From Mycobacteriales bacterium (GTDB lineage Bacteria; Actinomycetota; Actinomycetes; JAFAQI01): a stretch of 38,870 bases of DNA. Location: the NCBI GenBank assembly GCA_035504215.1, contig DATJSI010000097.1, positions 1-38,870 on the forward strand. The letters run 5' to 3'. A model generated the notes under the pieces. It was not told the origin of the DNA, did no database searches, and saw only the letters and a list, made by a program, of their open reading frames with translations. Below are positions 2,706-38,870 of this stretch, one piece after another (positions within the stretch are counted from its first letter, which is position 1; each line of letters opens with the position of its first letter). A program made the position numbers and the translations under genes.

Positions 2706-3535
2706 GAGAGCGGCACCGCGAGAATGCGGCCGGCCGGATGGGCCGCCGCCTCCACTTCGTCGAGCGGAGCGACGGCGACGAACAACGTGTGTCCGTCATC
2801 GCCGATCACACAGCAGTTCACGCCCACCCCCGGGATCCGGATCTCGTCGACGACCTCACCGCCGCGCGTCACGGCGACCGCTCGTTCGCCGTACGCGCAG
2901 GGCACCCAGATCACCCCGTCGGCGGTCACTGCGATGCCGTCCGGCCCCGAGCCGGCCGGGAGCTCGACGATCGGTCTCGGGTCGAACAACCCGCCGTCGC
3001 GGCCGATCGACATCTCGGTCACCCGGTCCGCGAACGTCTCGGCGACGAGCAGCGTCCAGCCGTCGTCCACGATGACGCAGCCGTTGGGGAAGACCACCTC
3101 GGGCGGCTCGACGAGCACAGCACCGTCGGGGTTCACCCGGACGAGATGGGTCGCCTCGACCGGCGCACCCGCATCGACGTCGTAGCCGTAGTTGCCCACG
3201 TACGCCCGGCCGTGTGCGTCGACGACCATGTCGTTGGCGAGCTGCGGGCACACCTCGGACAGGTCGGCGTACGTCGAGGTCGAGCCGTCGGCGGCCACCG
3301 CGCGGAGCGCCTTCTCCTGCATGGAAACGGCCAGCAACGTGCCGTCCGGCAGCCACCCGAGACCGCTCGGTTGGCCCGGAACCTCGGCAACCACGCGGGT
3401 TCCGGACCGGCTCAGGCACGACACCGTGCCGCCGAAGACGTCGGAGAACCACAGCGAGCCGTCGCGCCAGCGCAGCCCCTCCGGAAAGAACAGCTCGGCG
3501 GCGGCAACCGAGTGCCGGGAGAAGTCGGCCGGCAT
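2702..3535 (-). CDS. SMP-30/gluconolactonase-type sugar lactonase, paralogue 2
   Basis: A 277-aa SMP-30 family lactonase and paralogue of the protein at 1086-1922. Metal-binding Glu19 lies in FPEGLRW, with the FPNG Asn and GPDGI Asp also present. The start ATG at 3535 overlaps the stop codon of E1 beta by one base (TGATG), and the gene end overlaps the next SDR start. It is therefore an internal, translationally coupled member of the operon. A start further upstream (3592) would run into the E1 beta coding sequence and is not needed. Expected role: opening of the aldonolactone made by an SDR to the free acid used by the enolase-superfamily dehydratase. It could instead act on another lactone or ester. 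Confidence 0.88.
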   Translation of the reverse strand: MPADFSRHSVAAAELFFPEGLRWRDGSLWFSDVFGGTVSCLSRSGTRVVAEVPGQPSGLGWLPDGTLLAVSMQEKALRAVAADGSTSTYADLSEVCPQLANDMVVDAHGRAYVGNYGYDVDAGAPVEATHLVRVNPDGAVLVEPPEVVFPNGCVIVDDGWTLLVAETFADRVTEMSIGRDGGLFDPRPIVELPAGSGPDGIAVTADGVIWVPCAYGERAVAVTRGGEVVDEIRIPGVGVNCCVIGDDGHTLFVAVAPLDEVEAAAHPAGRILAVPLS

Positions 3536-4524
3536 CAGTAGCGGACCAGAGTCCTCGCCGCGTCGACGATCGCGTCCACGTCCGGCAGCCATGCGTTCTC
3601 GAGGTTCTCGGCGTACGGGATCGGTGTCGCCGGCGACGTGAGCAGGACGGGAGGGGCATCGAACAGCTCGAAGTGCCCAGTGGTCATGCGCGCCACCAGC
3701 GACGCGCCCCAGCCGCCGTCCGGCGGCCCTTCTTGTACGACGAGCAACCGCGAGGTGGTCTCGAGCGAGCGGACGACGGCGTCGTCGTCGAACGGCACGA
3801 GGCAGCGCGGGTCGATCACGCAGGCCTCGATGCCCTCCGCCGACAGCTTGGCCGCTGCGTCGGCCGAGCGGTGTCGCATCTGCTGGGTTGCGACGATGGT
3901 CACGTCGCTGCCCTCGGTCACCACGGCCGCCTCGCCGAGCGGGACGAGCTCGCGTCCGGCCGGCAGCGTCCCCTTGAGGTTGAACAGGTTCTTGTGCTCG
4001 AAGACGAGCACGGGGTTGTCGTCGTCAACCGCGGACTGCATCAGTCCGAACAGGTCCTCGACCGTTCCCGGCACGGCGATTTTCAAGCCGGGAATGTTGA
4101 GGAACCAGTTCTCCGCTGGCTGCGAGTGCTGGGCGCCGAAGCCGCCGCCGGCGCCGTTGCTGAGCCGGATGGTGACCGCAAGGGTCCCCTGCCCGCCGGT
4201 CATGTAGCGCAGCTTCGCCAGCTGGTTCGCCAGCTGGTCGTAGGCGACCCCCGCGAAGTCCGCGAACATCAGCTCGGCGATCGGGCGAAGGCCGGTCAAG
4301 GCCGCCCCGATCGCGGTGCCGATGATCGCCTGCTCGGAGATCGGGGTGTCGCGCACCCGCATCGGACCGAACCGCTCGAGCAGTCCTACCGTCGTCTTGA
4401 ACGCACCACCGGCAGCCGCGACGTCCTCGCCGAAGAACACGACCCGCGGGTCTGCCTCGAGCGCGGCCGCGATCGACTGGCCGACCGCTTGCCGGTAGTT
4501 GGTTTCGCGCGCCTCGCCGCTCAT
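3535..4524 (-). CDS. TPP-dependent 2-oxoacid (or acetoin-type) dehydrogenase E1, beta subunit
   Basis: The 329-aa product has the length and order of an E1 beta subunit. Key segments are VFFGEDVA near 29-36, RVRDTPISEQAIIGTAIGAA at 57-76 with Glu64 as the conserved cofactor-side glutamate, and a C-terminal transketolase-like domain (DPRCLVPFDDDAV, then VVQEGPPDGGWGASLVA). It forms an alpha2beta2 enzyme with the neighbouring E1 alpha, whose stop overlaps this start (ATGA, 4521-4524). Family members decarboxylate pyruvate, branched-chain oxoacids or acetoin and normally pass the acyl group to a lipoyl E2. No E2 or E3 gene is in this window. Position between a sugar-acid dehydratase and a lactonase suggests a substrate other than pyruvate, but this is inference. 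Confidence 0.9.
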   Translation of the reverse strand: MSGEARETNYRQAVGQSIAAALEADPRVVFFGEDVAAAGGAFKTTVGLLERFGPMRVRDTPISEQAIIGTAIGAALTGLRPIAELMFADFAGVAYDQLANQLAKLRYMTGGQGTLAVTIRLSNGAGGGFGAQHSQPAENWFLNIPGLKIAVPGTVEDLFGLMQSAVDDDNPVLVFEHKNLFNLKGTLPAGRELVPLGEAAVVTEGSDVTIVATQQMRHRSADAAAKLSAEGIEACVIDPRCLVPFDDDAVVRSLETTSRLLVVQEGPPDGGWGASLVARMTTGHFELFDAPPVLLTSPATPIPYAENLENAWLPDVDAIVDAARTLVRY

Positions 4525-29220: not shown

Positions 29221-30486
29221 CTACGACATCGTCTGGAGCCGATCGAGCTCCCGGACCCGTGCCGCGAGGAAGTCGCGCTCGACGGCGTTGTCGGTCAGCG
29301 CGAGCGCCGCGGCGTACTCGGCTCGGGCCTCGGGCCACCGGCCGGCCCGGCGCAGGAAGTCAGCCCGAGCGGCCGGCAGGTAGCGGTAGCCGCGCAGCTC
29401 GGGTTCGCTTGCTACCGCATCGATCGCGGCCAGCCCGGCCTGCGGTCCGTGCGCCATCCCGACGGCGACCGCGCGGTTGAGGGCGACCACGGGGGACGGC
29501 CAGATCGCGCAGAGCTCGTCGTAGAGGGCGACCACCTCGTCCCAGTCGGTTGCCTCCCATGTCGTGGCGCTGGCATGAACCGCCGCGATCGCCGCCTGCA
29601 ACGCGTAGCGACCCGGTGGCCGGCGGGCGCAGGCGTCGCGGACCAGCATCAGCCCTTCGCGGATCTCCGCCGCATCCCAACGCGAGCGATCCTGCTCCTC
29701 CAGGAGCAACAGCCGGCCGGTCCGGTCGACGCGGGTGTCGCGGCGTGCGTCGGTCAACAGGATCAGGGCGAGCAAGCCGGCGACATCGGGGTCATGAGGC
29801 AACAGCAGTCGCAACATCCGGGCGAGGTCGAGCGCGCGCTCCACCAGGTCCCGGCGGACGAGGTCGGCACTCACCGGCGCGGTGTGCCCGGTCGTGAAGA
29901 CCAGATGGATCACCCCGAGTACGGCGACCAGCCGCTCGGGCAGCTCGTGGGCGGGGGGCACCCGGTAGGGGATATGAGCGGCGGCGATCTTCTTCTTCGC
30001 CCGGGTGATCCGGGCGGCCATCGTCGGCTCGCTCACGAGGAACGCCTTGGCGACCTCGGCGGTCGTCAACCCGCAGAGCAGTCGCAGCGTCAGAGCGACC
30101 TGCGCTTCGGGCGCGAGCGCAGGGTGGCAGCAGGTGCAGATCAGCCGCAGCCGGTCGTCGGGGATCTCGCCGTCGTCCAGATCGAGGTCGGGCTCGGTCT
30201 CGGGCTCGGCGAGCTGCGGCATTGCGCGGACGAAGGTCGCGTCCCGCCGCTTCAGATCGAGCGCCCGCCGGCGAGCGACCGTCGTGAGCCAGGCTCCGGT
30301 TCGCTCCGGGATCCCTCTGGACTCCCAGACCGACAGGGCTTGCGCGTAGGCGTCCTGCACGCACTCCTCGGCCCGGTCCACGTCGCCGGTGACGCGCAGC
30401 GTCGCAGCGAGGACGAATCCCCACTCGCGACGATGCGCGTCCGCGACCGCAGCCGCGACGTCGGCGTGGCTCGGGGCGTTGGTCAG
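29221..30486 (-). CDS. ECF42-type RNA polymerase sigma factor, probable CTG start
   Basis: About 421 aa. Sigma region 2 is at the N-terminus (HRREWGFVLAATLRVTGDVDRAEECVQDAYAQAL, WLTTVARRRALDLKRR), region 4 follows (LTLRLLCGLTTAEVAKAFLVSEPTMAARITRAKKKI), and then the long C-terminal extension of about 220 residues with TPR-like helices (LYDELCAIWPSPVVALNRAVAV, YRYLPAARADFLRRAGRWPEARAEYAAAL). This is the ECF42 (SigJ-like) layout, and the gene directly follows a DGPF protein, as ECF42 genes typically do. The first in-frame GTG (30381) would cut off half of region 2. No ATG or GTG lies before it in this frame. CTG 30486, 2 nt after the DGPF stop with GGGG just upstream, gives the full domain. Confidence 0.87.
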   Translation of the reverse strand: MTNAPSHADVAAAVADAHRREWGFVLAATLRVTGDVDRAEECVQDAYAQALSVWESRGIPERTGAWLTTVARRRALDLKRRDATFVRAMPQLAEPETEPDLDLDDGEIPDDRLRLICTCCHPALAPEAQVALTLRLLCGLTTAEVAKAFLVSEPTMAARITRAKKKIAAAHIPYRVPPAHELPERLVAVLGVIHLVFTTGHTAPVSADLVRRDLVERALDLARMLRLLLPHDPDVAGLLALILLTDARRDTRVDRTGRLLLLEEQDRSRWDAAEIREGLMLVRDACARRPPGRYALQAAIAAVHASATTWEATDWDEVVALYDELCAIWPSPVVALNRAVAVGMAHGPQAGLAAIDAVASEPELRGYRYLPAARADFLRRAGRWPEARAEYAAALALTDNAVERDFLAARVRELDRLQTMS

Positions 30487-30488
30487 CG

Positions 30489-30833
30489 CTACCCCATCAC
30501 CATGATCGGGCGGACCTCGACGCCGCCGAAGCGGGCCGGCACCTGCTTGGCCACCGCGATCGCCTCGTCGAGGTCGGCCGCCTCGATGAGGTAGTAGCCG
30601 CCGAGCGCCTCCTTGGTCTCGGCGAACGGCCCGTCGGTCACGACCGGGCCGTCGACGCCCGGCCGGATCGAGGTCGCTGTCCCGGTCGGCTGCAACGCAT
30701 TGCCGCCGGCGACCGCCTTCGTGTTGTTCTCCCAGAACTTCGTGTGCTCGGCGCCGACCTCGCCCCAGAGCTCGGGGCCGCCGGTCGCGTACTCGGCTTC
30801 GTCTTCGTAGATCAGGACCAGGTACTGCGACAT
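30489..30833 (-). CDS. DGPF (YCII-related) family protein
   Basis: A 114-aa protein with the family-defining DGPF at 67-70 (VVTDGPFAETKEALGGYYLIEA), the N-terminal MSQYLVLIYEDE strand and the closing VEVRPIMVMG. The fold is a ferredoxin-like dimeric alpha/beta barrel related to YCII. These proteins occur next to ECF42 sigma factors and are often members of their regulons; their biochemical role is unknown. ATG 30833 has AAAGGAAAG 7 nt upstream. An upstream in-frame GTG or ATG would add an unlikely basic leader. It is the first gene of the DGPF-sigma(-ogt) unit and lies 85 nt downstream of an ECF42-like promoter. Confidence 0.92.
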   Translation of the reverse strand: MSQYLVLIYEDEAEYATGGPELWGEVGAEHTKFWENNTKAVAGGNALQPTGTATSIRPGVDGPVVTDGPFAETKEALGGYYLIEAADLDEAIAVAKQVPARFGGVEVRPIMVMG

Positions 30834-30917
30834 GGTGCGCTTTCCTTTCCGGTACGGGTCCGGCTCGCGAACCCGATCGCCAGTCCCGGGCCCGCGAACC
30901 GGACCCGACACCAGGAC

Positions 30918-30944
30918 GACGCTCTCACTACCGAGGGATCGACA
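30918..30944 (-). promoter_or_regulatory. ECF42-type promoter of the DGPF-sigma unit
   Basis: On the minus strand, TGTCGA (30944-30939), 17 nt, then CGTC (30921-30918). As I recall, the published ECF42 consensus is TGTCGA at -35 and CGA/TC at -10; this site matches both. It lies 85 nt before the DGPF start. Autoregulation by the sigma factor is therefore likely. Confidence 0.65.
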
Positions 30945-31004
30945 ACCAGACCGAGGTTTCGTTCGTCGGACTGGCAAAGAGGTGAACTTTGCCGGCCGCG
31001 CTGC

Positions 31005-31032
31005 GTGTCAGCCAAAAAGAAGCAGGTGTCAG
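31005..31032. repeat. GTGTCAG direct repeat, 21-bp period
   Basis: GTGTCAG occurs at 31005-31011 and 31026-31032, two helical turns apart, just upstream of the possible promoter of the first sedolisin gene. An A-rich stretch (CCAAAAAGAAG) lies between them. This layout suits a regulator binding as a tandem dimer on one DNA face. Confidence 0.3.
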
Positions 31033-31035
31033 GTA

Positions 31036-31064
31036 GAGACAATCGCGCCCGGTGGGGCTAGCGT
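31036..31064 (+). promoter_or_regulatory. Possible promoter of sedolisin gene 1
   Basis: GAGACA (31036-31041), 17-nt spacer, TAGCGT (31059-31064). The -10 fits TAnnnT and the -35 matches 4 of 6 consensus bases. The start would be near 31071, 40 nt before GTG 31111. Confidence 0.35.
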
Positions 31065-31110
31065 GCCGCCGACGGGCAATGGGACATCCGACAAGCAAAG
31101 GGTCGATTTC

Positions 31111-34100
31111 GTGAACAGAGGTTCTGTGCGTCAGCATTTCGCACGGCTCGTGACCTTCGTCGCCACGAGCGCGGTCGTCGTGGGCTTCATGGCTGCCGCT
31201 CCGGCAGCCGCTCACGGTGCTGCTCCGATGGCGAGGATCTCGTCGAACTACGCGCGGGTGAGCCGTCCCGCCGTGCTTCCGAGAGGCGCCCGTCTCGCCG
31301 GTGCCGCGCGCCGCAGCCAGACGATCAGCGGTGAGGTCGCGCTCGCTCCGCGCAACCCGGCCGCGCTGACGAAGGCTGCCGAGGCGGTTTCCAACCCGCG
31401 CTCGAAGACCTATCACCACTACCTCGGGAAGGGGAAGTTCGCCGCGGCGTACGGGCCTACTCGGGCGATGATCGACGCCGTCGAGGCGACCCTCAAGACG
31501 TCGCACTTGAAGGTGACGTCGCTGTCGGGCAACCACCTGCTGGTCCGGTTCAGCGGATCGATCGGTGATGCCGAGGATGCGTTCCGCACGCAGGTCTCGA
31601 ACGTGCGGCTGGCCAGCGGCCGGATGGCGCTCGCCACCACGAAGGCCGTGTCCTTCCCGGCGTCGCTCGCCTCGGACGTCACTGCCGTCGTCGGCCTGAA
31701 CACGATGGTCGAGCCGCGGAGCAACCTCGAGCGCGCGACCCACCCGGCCACGGTCAAGGCGATCGGCCACCACTTCACGCACCCGACCGGTGCGGCCAAC
31801 CCCTGCTCCGACGCGACCTCGACCGCGGGTGCCTATGGTGGCCTCACCGACGACCAGATCGTCCACTCCTACGGTGCGGACGGCCTGTACGGCGTCGGCG
31901 ACTTCGGCGCCGGTCAGACCGTCGGCATCTACGAGCTCGAGCCGTTCTCGCTCTCCGACCTCACCACCTTCGACACCTGCTACTTCAACGCCGGCGAGGC
32001 CGCGACGATGACCTCGCACGTCTCGGTCAAGAACGTCGACGGCGGGCCCGGCACGGGTTCCGGCGGCGGCGAGTCCATCCTCGACATCGAGAACGTCTCC
32101 GCGGTCGCGCCGGGCGCCAACATCGAGGTCTACCAGGCGCCCAACGGGGTCGCCGGCCCGCTCGACGACTACGACCAGATGGTCCAGGACGACACCGCGA
32201 ACATCATCTCGACCAGCTGGGGCGAGTGCGAGGCGCTCGCTCAGTCCTCCGAGCCCGGCGTGGTCAACGTCGAGAACGAGCTGTTCCAGCAGGCCGCGTT
32301 GCAGGGTCAGTCGGTGTTCGCCTCGGCCGGTGACTCCGGGTCCGACGACTGTGCAGAGGAAGCACCGAACCCGGTGACGCCGACCCTCTCGGTTGACGAC
32401 CCGACCAGCCAGCCGTTCGTCACATCGGTCGGCGGCACCACGACGACCAACGCCCAGGAGCCGCCCACGCAGCAGGTCTGGAACGACGGCAACCTCGGCG
32501 GCGGCACCGGCGGTGGCGTCTCCTCGACGTGGGGTGCGCCGAGCTGGCAGCAGCCGTTCCTCGACACCCAGGCGGCGGCCGATGCCGTCGCGGACGGTCT
32601 CCCGCCGTGTGCGGAGTCCCCTTCCAACGGTGCGTTGTGCCGTGAGGTTCCGGACGTTACGGCGCAGGCCGATGAATACACCGGCGGCATCACGATCTAC
32701 ATCGCGGCGTTCGGTGGCTGGACCACGATCGGCGGTACGTCGTCGGCGGCTCCGCTGTGGGCGGCCATGACCGCGCTGATCAACGCATCGAGCGGCTGCC
32801 AGAGCTCGGGCAACATCGGCTTCGCGAGCCCGTCGCTCTACGCGGTGGCCTCGGTGCCGGCCGACTACTCGGCGTCGTTCTCCGACCTGGGAACCGGTCA
32901 GGGCAACAACGACGTCTACAGCCTGAGCAACGGGCAGAACTACGCAACCAGGACCGGGTACGACATGGCGTCCGGCCTGGGCACGCCGGTCCTCACCGGA
33001 CCGACCGGCCAGGCCGGCCTGGCGAGCTACCTGTGCTCGTTGGCGCCCGCGTCCGCGCGGCCGTCGATCACCGGCCTGTCGCCGACTTCTGTCGCGGCCG
33101 GTTCGCCATCAGGGACGCTCACGATCAGCGGCTCGGGCTTCACCGGTGCGACCGGCCTGTCGATCGGCGCCTACGCGGTGCCGAGCGCCGACTGGTCGGT
33201 GGCCGACGACACCACGATCCATGTGACCACTATCCCGACCGGCGCCCAGGCGCTGACCGGCACCCTCGGTCCGCAGGACGGCACCGGCCGGGCGTTCGTC
33301 AGCGTGACCGGGAGTGACGGCGCGAGCTCGGTCGGCATGGATCCCGACGCCGAGCTGCTCTACCACAAGACCGCCTCGGCCTCCGACCCCACGGTCGAAG
33401 GTGTGACGTCCTTCGGCGGCTCGCAGGCCGGCGGCAACACGGTTGCGGTCTTCGGGTCCGGCTTCACCGGCACCACCGGGGTCACCTTCGGCGGCGTCGC
33501 GGGCACGAACGTCACCGTCATCAACGACAACGAGCTGCACGTCACCGTCCCGGCGTACGACTCCGGTACGACGACCTGCGCGACCGCTGCCGACCCGAAC
33601 ACCGACGTCTGCCAGGTGCAGGTCGTGGTGACCAACGGCACCGGTTCGAGCTCGACGGACACGATCCGGGTGCCGTACACCGGAGCGATCTTCGAGGGCA
33701 CGATCGGCGGCGCCAGCCTGCCGTCCTGCGTCGGTGCCGACACCTGCGAGGTCGTGCCGGCGGAGACGGAGTACGACTACCTGCCGACACCGATGATCAC
33801 GTCGGTGACGACGACCTCGGCGGATGACTCCACCGTGTGGGCCAGCGAGTTCGGCGACACGATCGCCACGATCGACGGATCCGGGTTCGACTCGCTCGGC
33901 TACCTGTGGACGTTGGTCGGCAACCCGGCGAGCAACGACAGCCAGGACTTCTCGACCGTCAGCGTCAGCCCGACCGAGATCCAGGTCGTCATCCCCGCAC
34001 ACAACGAGACCCTGAACCCGGTCTTGAAGAGCCTGAGCGTCCAGACGCTCGCGGGCATCTCGGCGTCCACCCAGTTCAAGTACGCCGGGCAGCCCAAGCT

Positions 34101-35037
34101 CACCGGGCTCACACCGCAAGGCGGGCCCGACCTGGGCGGCACGCAGATCACCGCGACCGGAGCTGCCTTTGAAGGCGTCGCGCCGGCCGACGGTGGCGCG
34201 CTGCTGTACACGTACCTCAACTTCGGGGTACCGACGGTTCAGCTCTCCGGGTACACCGCCGACAGCGACACGCAGCTGACGGCCACCACACCGCAGAACA
34301 ACCCTGGTGACTTCCTCGTCCAGGTCTGCACGGTGACGGACTGCTCGTTCCCGAACACCGAGAAGGCGTTCAACGACTCGTTGTTCGACTTCTTCGAACC
34401 CGGCGCTCCGCTGGTCACGAAGATGTCGGCCAGCTCGGGCCCGGCCTCCGGTGGCACGCACCTCACGATCACCGGGCAGAACCTCGGCGACGTTCTGGAC
34501 GTCACGTTCGGCAAGCAGGACGGGATCGACCCGCAGAACCCCTTCCAGATCCTGACCAACGGCAACACGACCGAGATCAAGGTGATCGTGCCGCCGGGCA
34601 AGCCGAACTCCACCGTGCATGTCAGAGTCGTGACGGCGGAGTCGTTCTTCACGGGGTCCGCACCGAGTGCTGCGAACGCCGCTTCGGCCTTCACCTACAA
34701 GCCGAGCGTGGCATCACCGCCGCAGGAGGTCACCTTCACGAAGCACGGTACGGCGGTCTCGGTGACGTGGAAGGCGCCTTACACCGACGGCGGGAGCCCG
34801 ATCCTGCATTACCGGGTGATCGCCGTCTCGCAGCCGAACAGCTTCAAGAAGGGCGCGAAGAAGCCGCCGAACGTGGTGGTGAAGACCAAGCACGCCTCGA
34901 CGCACAGTGCGGTCCTGACCGGCCTGCGAGGCGGCTGGACGTACAAGATCAAGGTGGAGGCGGTCACCAAGAAGGGGGACGGGTTGGCCGGCGAGCGCGG
35001 CAGCGACCCGTACGTATTCATCACCGATCCGGCCTGA
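31111..35037 (+). CDS. Secreted sedolisin-family (S53) serine-carboxyl protease with IPT repeats and FnIII-like domain
   Basis: A 1308-aa pre-pro-protease. A Sec signal covers about 1-37 (cleavage near AAAHGA). A pro-kumamolisin activation domain spans about 50-210. The catalytic domain at about 245-640 has Glu321 and Asp325 (ESILDIE), oxyanion Asp408 (SAGDSG), Ser544 in GGTSSAAP, and the calcium-site segment GYDMASGLGTP with Asp618. Four to five IPT/TIG-like beta-sandwich repeats follow, starting near 651, 761, 894, 995 and 1100. A C-terminal FnIII-like domain begins near 1199. Known sedolisins are acid-active endopeptidases that process themselves. GTG 31111 has AAAGGG 9 nt upstream and begins the signal peptide. 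The IPT and FnIII parts may bind a surface or polymer. Confidence 0.93.
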   Translation: MNRGSVRQHFARLVTFVATSAVVVGFMAAAPAAAHGAAPMARISSNYARVSRPAVLPRGARLAGAARRSQTISGEVALAPRNPAALTKAAEAVSNPRSKTYHHYLGKGKFAAAYGPTRAMIDAVEATLKTSHLKVTSLSGNHLLVRFSGSIGDAEDAFRTQVSNVRLASGRMALATTKAVSFPASLASDVTAVVGLNTMVEPRSNLERATHPATVKAIGHHFTHPTGAANPCSDATSTAGAYGGLTDDQIVHSYGADGLYGVGDFGAGQTVGIYELEPFSLSDLTTFDTCYFNAGEAATMTSHVSVKNVDGGPGTGSGGGESILDIENVSAVAPGANIEVYQAPNGVAGPLDDYDQMVQDDTANIISTSWGECEALAQSSEPGVVNVENELFQQAALQGQSVFASAGDSGSDDCAEEAPNPVTPTLSVDDPTSQPFVTSVGGTTTTNAQEPPTQQVWNDGNLGGGTGGGVSSTWGAPSWQQPFLDTQAAADAVADGLPPCAESPSNGALCREVPDVTAQADEYTGGITIYIAAFGGWTTIGGTSSAAPLWAAMTALINASSGCQSSGNIGFASPSLYAVASVPADYSASFSDLGTGQGNNDVYSLSNGQNYATRTGYDMASGLGTPVLTGPTGQAGLASYLCSLAPASARPSITGLSPTSVAAGSPSGTLTISGSGFTGATGLSIGAYAVPSADWSVADDTTIHVTTIPTGAQALTGTLGPQDGTGRAFVSVTGSDGASSVGMDPDAELLYHKTASASDPTVEGVTSFGGSQAGGNTVAVFGSGFTGTTGVTFGGVAGTNVTVINDNELHVTVPAYDSGTTTCATAADPNTDVCQVQVVVTNGTGSSSTDTIRVPYTGAIFEGTIGGASLPSCVGADTCEVVPAETEYDYLPTPMITSVTTTSADDSTVWASEFGDTIATIDGSGFDSLGYLWTLVGNPASNDSQDFSTVSVSPTEIQVVIPAHNETLNPVLKSLSVQTLAGISASTQFKYAGQPKLTGLTPQGGPDLGGTQITATGAAFEGVAPADGGALLYTYLNFGVPTVQLSGYTADSDTQLTATTPQNNPGDFLVQVCTVTDCSFPNTEKAFNDSLFDFFEPGAPLVTKMSASSGPASGGTHLTITGQNLGDVLDVTFGKQDGIDPQNPFQILTNGNTTEIKVIVPPGKPNSTVHVRVVTAESFFTGSAPSAANAASAFTYKPSVASPPQEVTFTKHGTAVSVTWKAPYTDGGSPILHYRVIAVSQPNSFKKGAKKPPNVVVKTKHASTHSAVLTGLRGGWTYKIKVEAVTKKGDGLAGERGSDPYVFITDPA

Positions 35038-35042
35038 CCAAC

Positions 35043-35080
35043 GCCACGGCCGCTGGGCTGATCGGCCCGGCGGCCGTGGC
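35043..35080 (+). terminator. Intrinsic-type terminator after sedolisin gene 1
   Basis: GCCACGGCCGC (35043-35053) pairs perfectly with GCGGCCGTGGC (35070-35080). The stem continues through a U-G wobble and GGGC/GCCC to a 6-nt loop, for 16 paired positions. ATTTGG follows. It begins 6 nt after the stop codon and is the strongest terminator-like hairpin in the window. Confidence 0.8.
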
Positions 35081-35116
35081 ATTTGGCCGAACTATCACCA
35101 AATCGTTACGTCAGGG

Positions 35117-35143
35117 ACGCCTGTCCAGCAGACTTACAGGCGT
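35117..35143. repeat. Inverted repeat upstream of sedolisin gene 2
   Basis: ACGCCTGT and ACAGGCGT are perfect 8-bp arms separated by 11 nt (19 bp centre to centre). It lies about 87 nt before GTG 35230 in the 149-nt stretch after the terminator, which otherwise shows no clear promoter. It may be an operator for the second protease gene or a hairpin. Confidence 0.4.
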
Positions 35144-35229
35144 TACATGTGGTGTCGTTAGAGCGACTTTTTCGGCCGAGCCCACCGGTTTCTCGCGCGG
35201 CCGTAAGCCGTATGGCTTGGGAGCTGCCC

Positions 35230-38200
35230 GTGAGGAGCGCACGCCTGGCGTTGCCCTGCGCGCTCGCGGGGCTGATCGTCGCAGGTCTCGGGTCGCCGGT
35301 CGCCGCTTTTGCCTCCGGCCGGCCGGCGCCCGCGCCGGTCCCGTTGTCCTCGGCGTACGCCCGGGTGTCGCCGGCCGTCCACCTGCCCTCCGGCGCGCGC
35401 CGGCTCGGCCTGGTGCGCGCCGACCGGCCGGTCTCCGGCGCCGTCGTCCTGCGGCCGCGAAACCCGGCCGAGCTCACTGCCGCCGCGCAAGCGGTGTCGG
35501 AGCCGCGCTCGCCCGGCTACCACCACTACCTGGCGAAGGGCGCGTTCCGCGCCCGGTTCGGGCCGACCGCCGCGACCATCGCCGCCGTGCGGACCGCGCT
35601 CTCGAGAAGCGGCCTGTCGGTCACGTCGGTGTCCTCCAATGGGCTGCTCGTGAACTTCCGCGGGACCGCATCCGACGCCGGGCGAGCATTTCGTACGTCG
35701 ATCTCCAACGTGCGGCTGCCGGACGGGCGGACCGGGATCGACACGACCGGCCCGGTGTCCCTGCCCGCGAACATTGCCGGCCAGGTCACGTCGGTGATCG
35801 GGCTCGACACCTTGGTGCACGCGACGACGAACCTCGAGCACGCCACGCATCCCGCGGCGGTCAAGGCGAAAGCACCGGCCGCGCCCGCGATCCCGGGAGC
35901 GCCCTCGGGTTGCAAGGGCGCGAAGGATGCCGCGGCCGACTTCGGCGGCCTCACCGACGCCCAGATCGCGCACTCCTACGGGTTGGCCAGCTCCTACGAG
36001 GCCGGTGACTTCGGTGCCGGCCAGCATGTCGGCATCTACGAGCTCGAGCCGTTCTCGACCACGGACGTCGCGACCTTCGACAAGTGCTTCTTCGGTGCGA
36101 CGCGGGCGACGCAGATGGCCAAGCGGCTGCGCACGATCGACGTCGACGGTGGCGGTGGCGACGGGCCCGGCAGCGGCGAGTCGATCCTCGACATCGAGGA
36201 TGTGTCCGCGATGGCGCCGCAGGCCACCATCGACGTCTGGGAGGCGCCCAACACGACCGCGGGCGGCATGGACGAGCTCGACCAGATGGTCGAGGACGAC
36301 ACCGACCAGGTCATCACCAGCAGCTGGGGCTTCTGCGAGATCGACGAGATCAACCTGCAGCCGGGCTACATCGACGCAGAGAACGCGTTGTTCGAGCAGG
36401 CCGCGCTGCAAGGCCAGACCGTGCTGAACTCCTCGGGCGACTCCGGCTCCGACGAGTGCGCGTACGACAGCCCGACGCCGGTGCAGCCGTACCTCTCGCA
36501 GAGCGACCCGGCGAGCGAGCCCTTCGTGCTCGGCGTCGGCGGCACCACGATCATCGACGCCACCAACCCGCCCGAGGAGCAGGTCTGGAACGACGGCAGC
36601 ACGGGTGGCGGCAGCGGCGGCGGCCCGTCGTCGATCTGGGGCGCCCCGTCCTGGCAGCAGCCGTTCATCACCGGCACCGACAAGCAGCTCGCCGAGGACG
36701 CGGTCACCGATGGGATGACGCCCTGCGCCCAGTCGCCGGATGGCAGCCTGTGCCGCGAGGCGCCGGACGTGTCCGCGCAGGCCGACGAATACACCGGCGC
36801 GATCACGATCTACACGAAGGCCTTCGGTGGCTGGACCACGGAAGGCGGTACGTCGTCCTCCGCGCCGCTGTGGGCGGGCATGCTCGCGGTGATCAACGCC
36901 TCCGCCGCGTGCCAGGCCGCCGGGCCGATCGGTTTCGTCGACCCGTCCCTGTACGCGATCGCGGCGATCCCCGCGGAGTACAAGGCGTCGTTCAACGACA
37001 TCAAGAGCGGCGACAACGACGTGTTCGACCTGAACGGCGGCGCGACCTTCCGGGCGCTCACCGGGTACGACATGGCCACCGGGCTCGGTTCGCCGCGGGT
37101 GAGGGGACTGACCGCCAACCTCTGCACGATGAAGGCGCCGAGCACGCCGCCCCCGGTGGTGAGCGGGGTCTCGCCGGAGGCGGTCGGCCCGACCACGACC
37201 GGCAGCCTGACCGTCACCGGCTCCGGATTCACCGGCGCGCAGGCGCTGTCGATCGACGCGTACGCGGTGCCGAGCGCCGACTGGACGGTGAACAGCGACA
37301 CCCAGATCACGGTCTCGCCGATCCCGACCGCACTTCAGGTCGGCACCGCATCGGGACTGGGCACCTCCTCTGCCGACGGCTCCGACGGCACCGGTCGCGC
37401 GGTGGTCACTGTCACCGGGAGCGGTGGCGCGACCTCCGCCGTCAACGCGGACGCCACCATGCTGTACGTCGACGGCACCTCGGCGGCTCCGGTCCCGTCG
37501 GTTGGCGGGATCTCGGCGTACGGCGGTGCGAAGGCGGGCGGCAACACGGTCACCGTCTTCGGGTCGGGCTTCGCCTCGAGCGCGCCGGATCCCATCACCA
37601 GCGTCACGGTCGGCGGCGTGCCCGCCCTCGGCTGGACGGTGAAGACCCCGAGCCTGCTCGAGGTGACGATTCCGCCGTACCAGTCAGGAACCACCCAGTG
37701 CGCGGCCGGAGACGACCCGACCACTGACATCTGCCAGGCCCAGCTGGTCGTGACGAATGCGAACGGGTCCAGCCAGGTCGCGACGATCGAGCCGCCCTAC
37801 GAAGGTGCGGAGTATGGCGGCGTCAGCGGTGAGACGAGCCTGCCTGACTGCGTGACCGGACACACCTGCGAGATCGTGGCCGCGGTCACCGAGTACGACT
37901 ACTTCCCCAAGCCGACCATCACCTCAGTGACGACTACCGATGCGACCGACCCGACGACCTGGGCGTCGGAGAACGGCACGACCCTGGCGTTCGTCAATGG
38001 CACCGGCTTCGACTACCTCGGGTTGGAGTACGCGAACATCGGGTCGCCGTCCGTGGCTAACAACCAGGACTTCAGCATCATCCAGACCGACGGCGCAACC
38101 CAGTTCGAGATCGCGCTGAACCCGAGCCATCGCACGCACGAGGCGGTCACAAAGGCGCTCACCGTGCAGACGCTTGCCGGCCGGTCGTCGGGGTGGCCGA

Positions 38201-38870
38201 TCCGCTACGCCGGAGTGCCGAGGATCTCCAAGATCACACCGAACGCCGGACCCGACACCGGTGGCACGCACGTGACCATGACCGGCACCGGCTTCGACGG
38301 CGTCGCCGTTGCCGACGGTGGCGAGCTCTCCTTCGGCTACCTGCCGTTCAACTCCTCGACCGTGCAGCTGTCCGGCTACACCGTGGCGAGCGACACCAAG
38401 ATCACCGGGAAGACGCCGGGCAACAACCCCGGCGCGTTCGCCGCGCAAGCCTGCACGCTGACCGGTTGCTCGGTGGCAACCTCCAAGAAGTCGCTGCACG
38501 ACACGCTGTTCGACTTCTACCAGCGAGGGACGCCGAGGGTCACGTCACTGTCGGTGAAGGCGGGGCCGGCTTCCGGCGGGACACGGGTCGTGATTCATGG
38601 CCACAACCTGGCGGACGCGGTTCTGGTCACGTTCGGCAAGCGGGTGGCGGAAGCCTCGAACGCGCCGCAGATCCTGACCAACGGCAGCAGCACCGAGGTG
38701 GACGCGCTCGCACCGCCGGGCAAGGCGGGCACTACGGTGAACGTCCGCGTCACTACGGTCGAGAGCCGCGTCACCCACCACGGTCCGAGCGCGCCGAGCG
38801 CCGGCGGCCGGTTCAGGTACCACGCGAGCATCGCCTCCGCGCCCCGACATGTGCGCGCAAAGAGCCATCT
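35230..38870 (+). CDS. Secreted sedolisin-family (S53) protease, paralogue 2 (runs off right edge)
   Basis: At least 1213 codons are open to the window edge. GTG 35230 has GGGAG 6 nt upstream and starts a clean signal peptide (MRSARLALPCALAGLIVAGL); ATG 35212 is in frame but lacks a ribosome site. Domain order matches the gene before it: activation domain, catalytic domain with Glu317, Asp321, oxyanion Asp404 and Ser542 (GGTSSSAP), the GYDMATGLGSP calcium segment, then IPT-like repeats. The start of the C-terminal FnIII-like part (SIASAPRHVRAK) reaches the edge. All catalytic residues are present, so it should be active. It is a tandem paralogue, with clear identity in the core (FGGLTDAQIAHSYG, IYELEPFS, ADEYTG, ITIY) and divergence in the signal and linker. 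Confidence 0.92.
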   Translation, partial: MRSARLALPCALAGLIVAGLGSPVAAFASGRPAPAPVPLSSAYARVSPAVHLPSGARRLGLVRADRPVSGAVVLRPRNPAELTAAAQAVSEPRSPGYHHYLAKGAFRARFGPTAATIAAVRTALSRSGLSVTSVSSNGLLVNFRGTASDAGRAFRTSISNVRLPDGRTGIDTTGPVSLPANIAGQVTSVIGLDTLVHATTNLEHATHPAAVKAKAPAAPAIPGAPSGCKGAKDAAADFGGLTDAQIAHSYGLASSYEAGDFGAGQHVGIYELEPFSTTDVATFDKCFFGATRATQMAKRLRTIDVDGGGGDGPGSGESILDIEDVSAMAPQATIDVWEAPNTTAGGMDELDQMVEDDTDQVITSSWGFCEIDEINLQPGYIDAENALFEQAALQGQTVLNSSGDSGSDECAYDSPTPVQPYLSQSDPASEPFVLGVGGTTIIDATNPPEEQVWNDGSTGGGSGGGPSSIWGAPSWQQPFITGTDKQLAEDAVTDGMTPCAQSPDGSLCREAPDVSAQADEYTGAITIYTKAFGGWTTEGGTSSSAPLWAGMLAVINASAACQAAGPIGFVDPSLYAIAAIPAEYKASFNDIKSGDNDVFDLNGGATFRALTGYDMATGLGSPRVRGLTANLCTMKAPSTPPPVVSGVSPEAVGPTTTGSLTVTGSGFTGAQALSIDAYAVPSADWTVNSDTQITVSPIPTALQVGTASGLGTSSADGSDGTGRAVVTVTGSGGATSAVNADATMLYVDGTSAAPVPSVGGISAYGGAKAGGNTVTVFGSGFASSAPDPITSVTVGGVPALGWTVKTPSLLEVTIPPYQSGTTQCAAGDDPTTDICQAQLVVTNANGSSQVATIEPPYEGAEYGGVSGETSLPDCVTGHTCEIVAAVTEYDYFPKPTITSVTTTDATDPTTWASENGTTLAFVNGTGFDYLGLEYANIGSPSVANNQDFSIIQTDGATQFEIALNPSHRTHEAVTKALTVQTLAGRSSGWPIRYAGVPRISKITPNAGPDTGGTHVTMTGTGFDGVAVADGGELSFGYLPFNSSTVQLSGYTVASDTKITGKTPGNNPGAFAAQACTLTGCSVATSKKSLHDTLFDFYQRGTPRVTSLSVKAGPASGGTRVVIHGHNLADAVLVTFGKRVAEASNAPQILTNGSSTEVDALAPPGKAGTTVNVRVTTVESRVTHHGPSAPSAGGRFRYHASIASAPRHVRAKSH

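Follow-up and report, generated by a model that had tools for sequence, protein, structure and literature searches.

Why would an actinobacterium keep, side by side, two proteases of the S53 (sedolisin) family that each run to about 1,300 residues? The question is posed by the right-hand end of contig DATJSI010000097.1 (C97 below), all 38,870 bases of which make up the window, the whole stretch of DNA analysed here; the genome to which it belongs (G000, the own genome below) comprises 3.47 Mb in 150 contigs. The answer that we favour, tentatively and at a little under an even chance, is that both are exported acid proteases borne on a stalk of TIG domains, with a cationic fibronectin type III (FnIII) foot resting on an anionic wall polymer, and that the paralogues have diverged in the S1 pocket. 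After export, a basic prodomain would shield the acidic enzyme and would be removed at low pH. The TIG domains would serve as the stalk, and by binding anionic cell-wall polymers the cationic foot would retain the enzyme, with peptides being freed at the cell surface. Both paralogues would have been retained because they cleave differently, an Asp versus a Ser in the S1 pocket being the best candidate for the difference. The tail may itself exemplify a more general device in these bacteria, whereby exported proteins that are otherwise unrelated finish in a cationic FnIII domain.

Domain architecture and its occurrence

Both genes lie on the forward strand in frames without internal stops. Copy 1 begins with GTG at 31111 and extends to 35034 (1,308 residues; stop TGA at 35035-35037), while copy 2 begins with ATG at 35212 and is interrupted by the contig end, 1,219 of its residues being encoded inside the window. 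Its FnIII tail lies outside the window, at bases 1-301 of contig C29. When the tail of copy 1 was searched against the own genome, it matched a 99-residue open frame at the extreme start of C29; the last 18 bases of C97 are identical to the first 18 of C29, and the reading frame carries across the join to a stop at C29:299-301. Joined copy 2 has 1,313 residues, which bears out the original prediction of two adjacent S53 proteases of about 1,300 residues. The features are as follows, with net charge (here and below) given as K+R−D−E per domain.

31111-35037, forward strand: copy 1, giant sedolisin (open frame, Pfam)
31111-31218, forward strand: copy 1, predicted Sec-type signal peptide, about residues 1-36 (crude signal rule, boundary by eye)
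31288-31704, forward strand: copy 1, Pro-kumamolisin activation domain, net +9 (Pfam)
31840-33036, forward strand: copy 1, S53 catalytic domain, residues 244-642, net −42 (kumamolisin alignment)
33061-34701, forward strand: copy 1, IPT/TIG region of five stretches, residues about 651-1197 (Pfam, single-domain borders by eye)
34714-34983, forward strand: copy 1, C-terminal FnIII domain, net about +8 to +10, 17 residues before the stop (Pfam)
35212-38870, forward strand: copy 2, giant sedolisin, continuing at G000:C29:1-301
35392-35811, forward strand: copy 2, Pro-kumamolisin activation domain (Pfam)

Pfam matches to the activation domain (PF09286) are well over the cut-off in copy 1 (E 7e-25) and copy 2 (E 2e-25) and are accompanied by five TIG stretches in copy 1, four in copy 2 and an fn3 match in copy 1 (E 8e-12); phmmer aligns residues 264-627 of copy 1 to kumamolisin 1gt9 (E 1.3e-34). 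The copies are 53% identical to each other across 1,222 columns. S53 enzymes are in general exported, activated at low pH and active in acid, and both copies are predicted to be kumamolisin-type pre-pro-proteases that are exported, zymogenic, of the acid type and active. A passage of one source describes the prosegment linker of S53 enzymes as taken off at low pH (PMC6278154), and another, on archaeal acidophile genomes, correlates the presence of S53 with acidophily (PMC6411800). That the two share the same extra domains, as had been claimed, holds inside the window for TIG; the FnIII tail of copy 2 was found on C29. Among 12 giants that we aligned, PF09286 is present at the N-terminus of all and a TIG (PF01833) array lies directly C-terminal of the S53 domain in all, as it also does in a giant from genome G280. 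An fn3 match was obtained in 7 of the 12 rows, with copy 2 and one other (L019b) truncated there, and FnIII is not universal in the group.

The nearest well-known relatives are kumamolisin and kumamolisin-As of Alicyclobacillus (S53; PDB 1gt9, 1t1e, 1sio), which have the giants' type of prodomain and their catalytic and calcium residues in common with them. The 1t1e chain is 552 residues long, however, whereas in the giants TIG and FnIII add about 650 residues; kumamolisin-As is described in passages of a review as being without a binding domain (PMC11294657). Collagenolytic proteases with C-terminal PKD, PPC or collagen-binding domains, as presented in the same passages, resemble the giants in joining a protease to a binding C-terminus but differ in their accessory domains and protease families (PMC11294657).

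The own genome holds five Pro-kuma_activ matches, on C97 (two), C96, C62 and C32. That on C96 belongs to a third complete giant (copy 3; 1,312 residues), which stands alone on its contig and is 45-47% identical to the pair. A third copy past the right edge of the window had been proposed as a check; none was found in tandem, C29 passing from the tail of copy 2 into a gene of the enoyl-CoA hydratase family, menB-like by eye. The sedolisins of C62 (995-residue frame) and C32 (725-residue frame) share Pro-kuma_activ and S53-type sequence with the giants, but they have no TIG match in Pfam and share about 28% identity with copy 1 in the protease part.

Beyond this genome, 33 loci that encode a relative emerged when genome contigs of 84,980 species were scanned for two conserved peptide patterns; this number is a lower bound, since genomes lacking the exact patterns are invisible to the scan. 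In six of the 33 (L017 to L022, all labelled actinobacterial metagenome-assembled genomes, MAGs) the match continues well beyond the protease part, as far as residues 984-1292 of copy 1. A search with the accessory region matched 3 of 12 genomes of the family, the own included. In a 396-genome sample of the phylum, with up to three candidates scored per genome and E 1e-20, at least three match: the own genome, G280 and, partially, G237. We did not count G237, whose match spans 172 of 535 model positions and whose contig gave no sedolisin frame in a motif scan, which leaves giants in at least 2 of the 396 genomes, the own included; that of G280 is a true giant of 1,200 residues without FnIII. 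The architecture of prodomain, S53, TIG array and usually a C-terminal FnIII is therefore rare in the genomes searched, in agreement with the earlier view that so long an accessory part is uncommon. As to whether it is a common and already characterized feature of close relatives, it is shared within the family without being common there, and the papers searched held no characterization. No description of it was found in literature searched by title and start of abstract, subscription literature and supplements being outside that search. The protease core is of a known kind; the long form with a charged tail seems undescribed.

Active sites and history of the duplication

Residue numbers of kumamolisin were taken from the 1gt9 alignment. 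The catalytic residues of kumamolisin are Glu78, Asp82 and the nucleophile Ser278, with Asp164 at the oxyanion hole. Equivalents of Glu32, Glu78, Asp82, Asp164 and Ser278 are kept in all 12 aligned giants, both window copies included, confirming the claim that each copy retains its catalytic residues. The C-terminal calcium-site Asp pair (equivalents of Asp592 and Asp618) is kept in 10 of the 12, again with both window copies among them, and is altered in L021 and L022. In these two giants (L021:2582-6136 and L022:1906-4971) Pro and Asn replace the pair and the triad is intact. All assignments listed here come from the alignment.

31933-31935, forward strand: copy 1 Glu275, kumamolisin Glu32
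32071-32073, forward strand: copy 1 catalytic Glu321, kumamolisin Glu78
32083-32085, forward strand: copy 1 catalytic Asp325, kumamolisin Asp82
32332-32334, forward strand: copy 1 oxyanion Asp408, kumamolisin Asp164
32395-32397, forward strand: copy 1 Asp429, kumamolisin S1-pocket Asp179 (Ser in copy 2)
32740-32742, forward strand: copy 1 nucleophile Ser544, kumamolisin Ser278
36178-36180, forward strand: copy 2 catalytic Glu, kumamolisin Glu78
36190-36192, forward strand: copy 2 catalytic Asp, kumamolisin Asp82
36439-36441, forward strand: copy 2 oxyanion Asp, kumamolisin Asp164
36853-36855, forward strand: copy 2 nucleophile Ser, kumamolisin Ser278

Asp179 in the S1 pocket is said, in a passage of the review cited above, to set the Arg preference of kumamolisin-As (PMC11294657). 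The position is Asp in copy 1, L017, L020, L021 and L022, Ser in copy 2, Gly in copy 3, the giants of two related genomes (G001 and G002) and L019b, and Leu in L018 and L019a. The Asp versus Ser of the pair is thus a hint of split specificity that falls short of proof because the position varies throughout the giants. The original prediction of a split in substrate or pH range accordingly keeps this one lead on the substrate side and gains nothing for pH range.

Related genomes allow the duplication to be dated. In G001 and G002 a giant that matches the window pair in architecture (50-54% identity) stands between the same flanking genes, sigma factor and menB-like; these genomes differ from the window in having one copy only and, in G002, two other frames before the menB-like gene. 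At 87% identity, the menB-like gene of C29 corresponds to the right-hand neighbour of the giant in G001 and, beyond a 4.5-kb insert, in G002; the sigma-factor gene adjoining copy 1 shares 71-80% identity with the genes left of the giants in the two genomes. This matching synteny gives independent support for the join of C97 to C29, and together they establish the gene order sigma factor, copy 1, copy 2, menB-like gene. The left neighbour is:

29221-30381, reverse strand: sigma-70-family factor with DUF6596, syntenic in G001 and G002

In a tree of the 12 giants, copy 1, copy 2 and the G001 and G002 giants form a group without internal resolution (84/89) that excludes the C96 copy; a tree of 20 rows places copy 2 weakly with G001 and G002, apart from copy 1 (80/77). 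Forcing copies 1 and 2 to be sisters costs 13 log units and is marginally rejected (p-AU 0.042), and forcing copy 1 with G002 costs 12 log units (p-AU 0.061), both values being borderline for topologies tested after the trees had been inspected. Corrected dS, rough at this divergence and obtained by a simple method, is 0.79 between the copies, 0.81 between copy 1 and the G002 gene and 0.62-0.76 among menB-like orthologues. With the pair so similar in dS to these comparisons, the duplication is estimated to be about as old as neighbouring genera, two of which, represented by G001 and G002, hold one giant at the same locus. The old duplication that had been predicted is in this way upheld by dS and by the marginal rejection of an exclusive sister pair, and a recent one is ruled out by the same tree tests and dS. 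One copy was likely, though not provably, lost in G001 and G002. A Streptosporangiaceae MAG (L019) likewise has two adjacent giants with S53 and a TIG region, the second cut by a contig end, but unlike the window pair these are sisters (100/99) with 74% identity and represent a separate duplication.

Have both copies been kept for different work? They might instead be redundant and kept for dosage, their differences being drift in a fast-evolving exported protein, an explanation that we hold to be possible but doubtful. The giants of the family at this locus fall to 50-54% identity, against 86-87% for the menB-like neighbour, and divergence alone is therefore no sign of new function; the variability of the S1 position across all giants (Asp, Ser, Gly, Leu) points the same way. 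Against dosage, both copies have stayed whole, with complete active sites, although about as old as the genera, and a third copy survives as well. Values of dN/dS are 0.46-0.65 among the family's giants and about 0.5 between the copies, compared with 0.12-0.15 for the menB-like gene: the giants are constrained but fast-evolving. An inactive second copy is ruled out, as far as sequence can do so, by the intact frame, the complete active site and dN/dS.

Other features of the locus can be noted briefly. A scan from 30380 to 35300 found no promoter-like site and three terminator-like sites, against 1.9 expected, which is uninformative. In G002, frames for a 995-residue regulator-like protein and a 483-residue exported-looking protein (functions judged by eye) lie between the giant and the menB-like gene (L082:12695-17215); they are missing from G001 and from the window genome. 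They fill the 4.5-kb gap, where no degraded second giant was seen.

The charged C-terminal domain

Charge is distributed along the giants in a consistent way. The catalytic domain is acidic in all 12 (net −25 to −63) and the prodomain is basic in 11 (+4 to +10; 0 in L018). The FnIII domain, where it ends the protein, is basic in seven cases out of seven: +8 in copy 1, +15 in joined copy 2, +10 in copy 3, +20 in G001, +12 in G002, +7 in L019a and +10 in L020. In L018 (L018:3-4880), where about 260 residues that look repeat-like by eye follow the FnIII domain, its charge is +1. Attachment through IPT/FnIII, as originally proposed, is refined accordingly: the terminal FnIII is consistently basic, the TIG part is not. 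Basic TIG domains do occur in giants without FnIII (L021 TIG3 +9 and TIG4 +3; L022 TIG2 +10).

The same relation between position and charge extends to other proteins. We read all 28 FnIII matches of the own genome, leaving out one cut by a contig end. Seven are terminal, within 17 residues of the stop, and carry net +7 to +15, whereas the 20 internal ones range from −10 to +6 (17 negative, the rest +2, +3 and +6). The seven belong to three sedolisins, a SpoIID-domain protein, an NHL-repeat protein and two proteins without another Pfam match. The rank test gives p 6e-5 per domain; with one value per protein (7 versus 9) p is 5e-4, and it remains 5e-4 with the sedolisins counted once (5 versus 9). 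All 27 matches in G001, G002 and G008 were also read: seven terminal domains (25 residues or fewer from the end), two of them in sedolisins, carry +4 to +24 and 20 others −10 to +10 (p 1e-4). From a sample of 40 genomes of the class we read 26 further loci, each from a different genome; they comprise two terminal domains (+16, +20) and 24 others (−11 to +13; p 0.011). The per-domain tests (6e-5, 1e-4 and 0.011) assume independence among domains that are related, and the idea itself arose from the own genome. A basic terminal FnIII is apparently not special to sedolisins.

Several of these proteins deserve mention in their own right. On C36 of the own genome, two adjacent exported-looking NHL-repeat proteins (L133:1521-2981 and 2985-4364, reverse strand) both end in FnIII, with last 100 residues of +13 and +12, and so form a second neighbouring pair that shares this type of C-terminus; on C128, the basic FnIII of the SpoIID-domain protein (L135:7095-8720, reverse strand) ends four residues before the stop. 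Frames of 516 and 536 residues (G002:C143 and G008:C198) end in similar-looking FnIII domains. Four large frames of the own genome, on C28 (1,661 and 1,571 residues), C82 (936) and C135 (1,000), contain arrays of mostly acidic internal FnIII domains; in each frame about 225 residues come after the array, and their final residues are similar.

Cationic tethering would have a precedent in CbsA of Lactobacillus, whose C-terminal region binds teichoic acids according to a passage of PMC7677277, and we infer both the activity and the tethering of the giants. A number of observations weigh against this reading. The comparison is among related domains: the 20 internal FnIII come from 9 proteins, three of which have positive means, and three of the seven terminal ones are from sedolisins. 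In other genomes some internal FnIII domains (+7, +10, +13) equal terminal ones in positive charge, and one terminal domain reaches only +4. The FnIII search was incomplete, missing at least one domain found by hmmscan, in the second NHL protein on C36. Some exported-looking proteins without FnIII also end basic, in a set of 58 exported-like proteins that mixes unselected contigs with contigs chosen for TIG/FnIII matches and was defined by crude gene and signal rules. L017, L021, L022 and G280 are without FnIII, and L017 ends near zero charge. The AlphaFold model of mature copy 1 is poor (mean pLDDT 52, pTM 0.31) and is used for no claim. Finally, the giants lack the C-terminal LPXTG that, ahead of a hydrophobic stretch, marks wall proteins anchored covalently by sortase: LPxT[GA] occurs in the last 80 residues of none of 11 giants checked, other anchor types not having been searched for.

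This last result suits another explanation, that the giants are free extracellular scavenging proteases. Their TIG and FnIII domains would then attach to, or spread over, protein substrates that are insoluble or bound to polyanions, and the basic foot would bind substrate and not the cell's own wall. C-terminal domains of other collagenolytic proteases do bind or swell substrate, according to passages of PMC11294657. Similar cationic terminal FnIII domains are nevertheless found on SpoIID-domain and NHL-repeat proteins, for which a protein substrate is unexpected, so that a shared place fits better than a shared substrate, and we consider scavenging somewhat unlikely. It is improbable that the basic tail tethers nothing and is mere adaptation to an acid environment, keeping the protein soluble or stable at low pH: the computed net charge of copy 1 does shift from −42 to −12 in the catalytic domain and from +8 to +17 in FnIII between pH 7 and pH 4, but most internal FnIII domains in this genome are not basic.

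Retention of the giants on the wall by a cationic foot thus remains the explanation that we prefer. It could be widened, in a proposal that we regard as speculative and on balance unlikely, to a cationic C-terminal FnIII acting as a general non-covalent surface-retention tag in this bacterial class, on proteases, SpoIID-domain, NHL-repeat and other proteins; internal FnIII domains would be mostly near neutral or acidic for lack of that job, and the giant sedolisins would be displayed by the tag. If so, a small cationic FnIII domain would be a simple display module, with location predictable from sequence. For the organism, acid-type proteases would be kept at the surface and not lost to the medium, which would matter for the question of which organisms benefit when protein is broken down in acid habitats.

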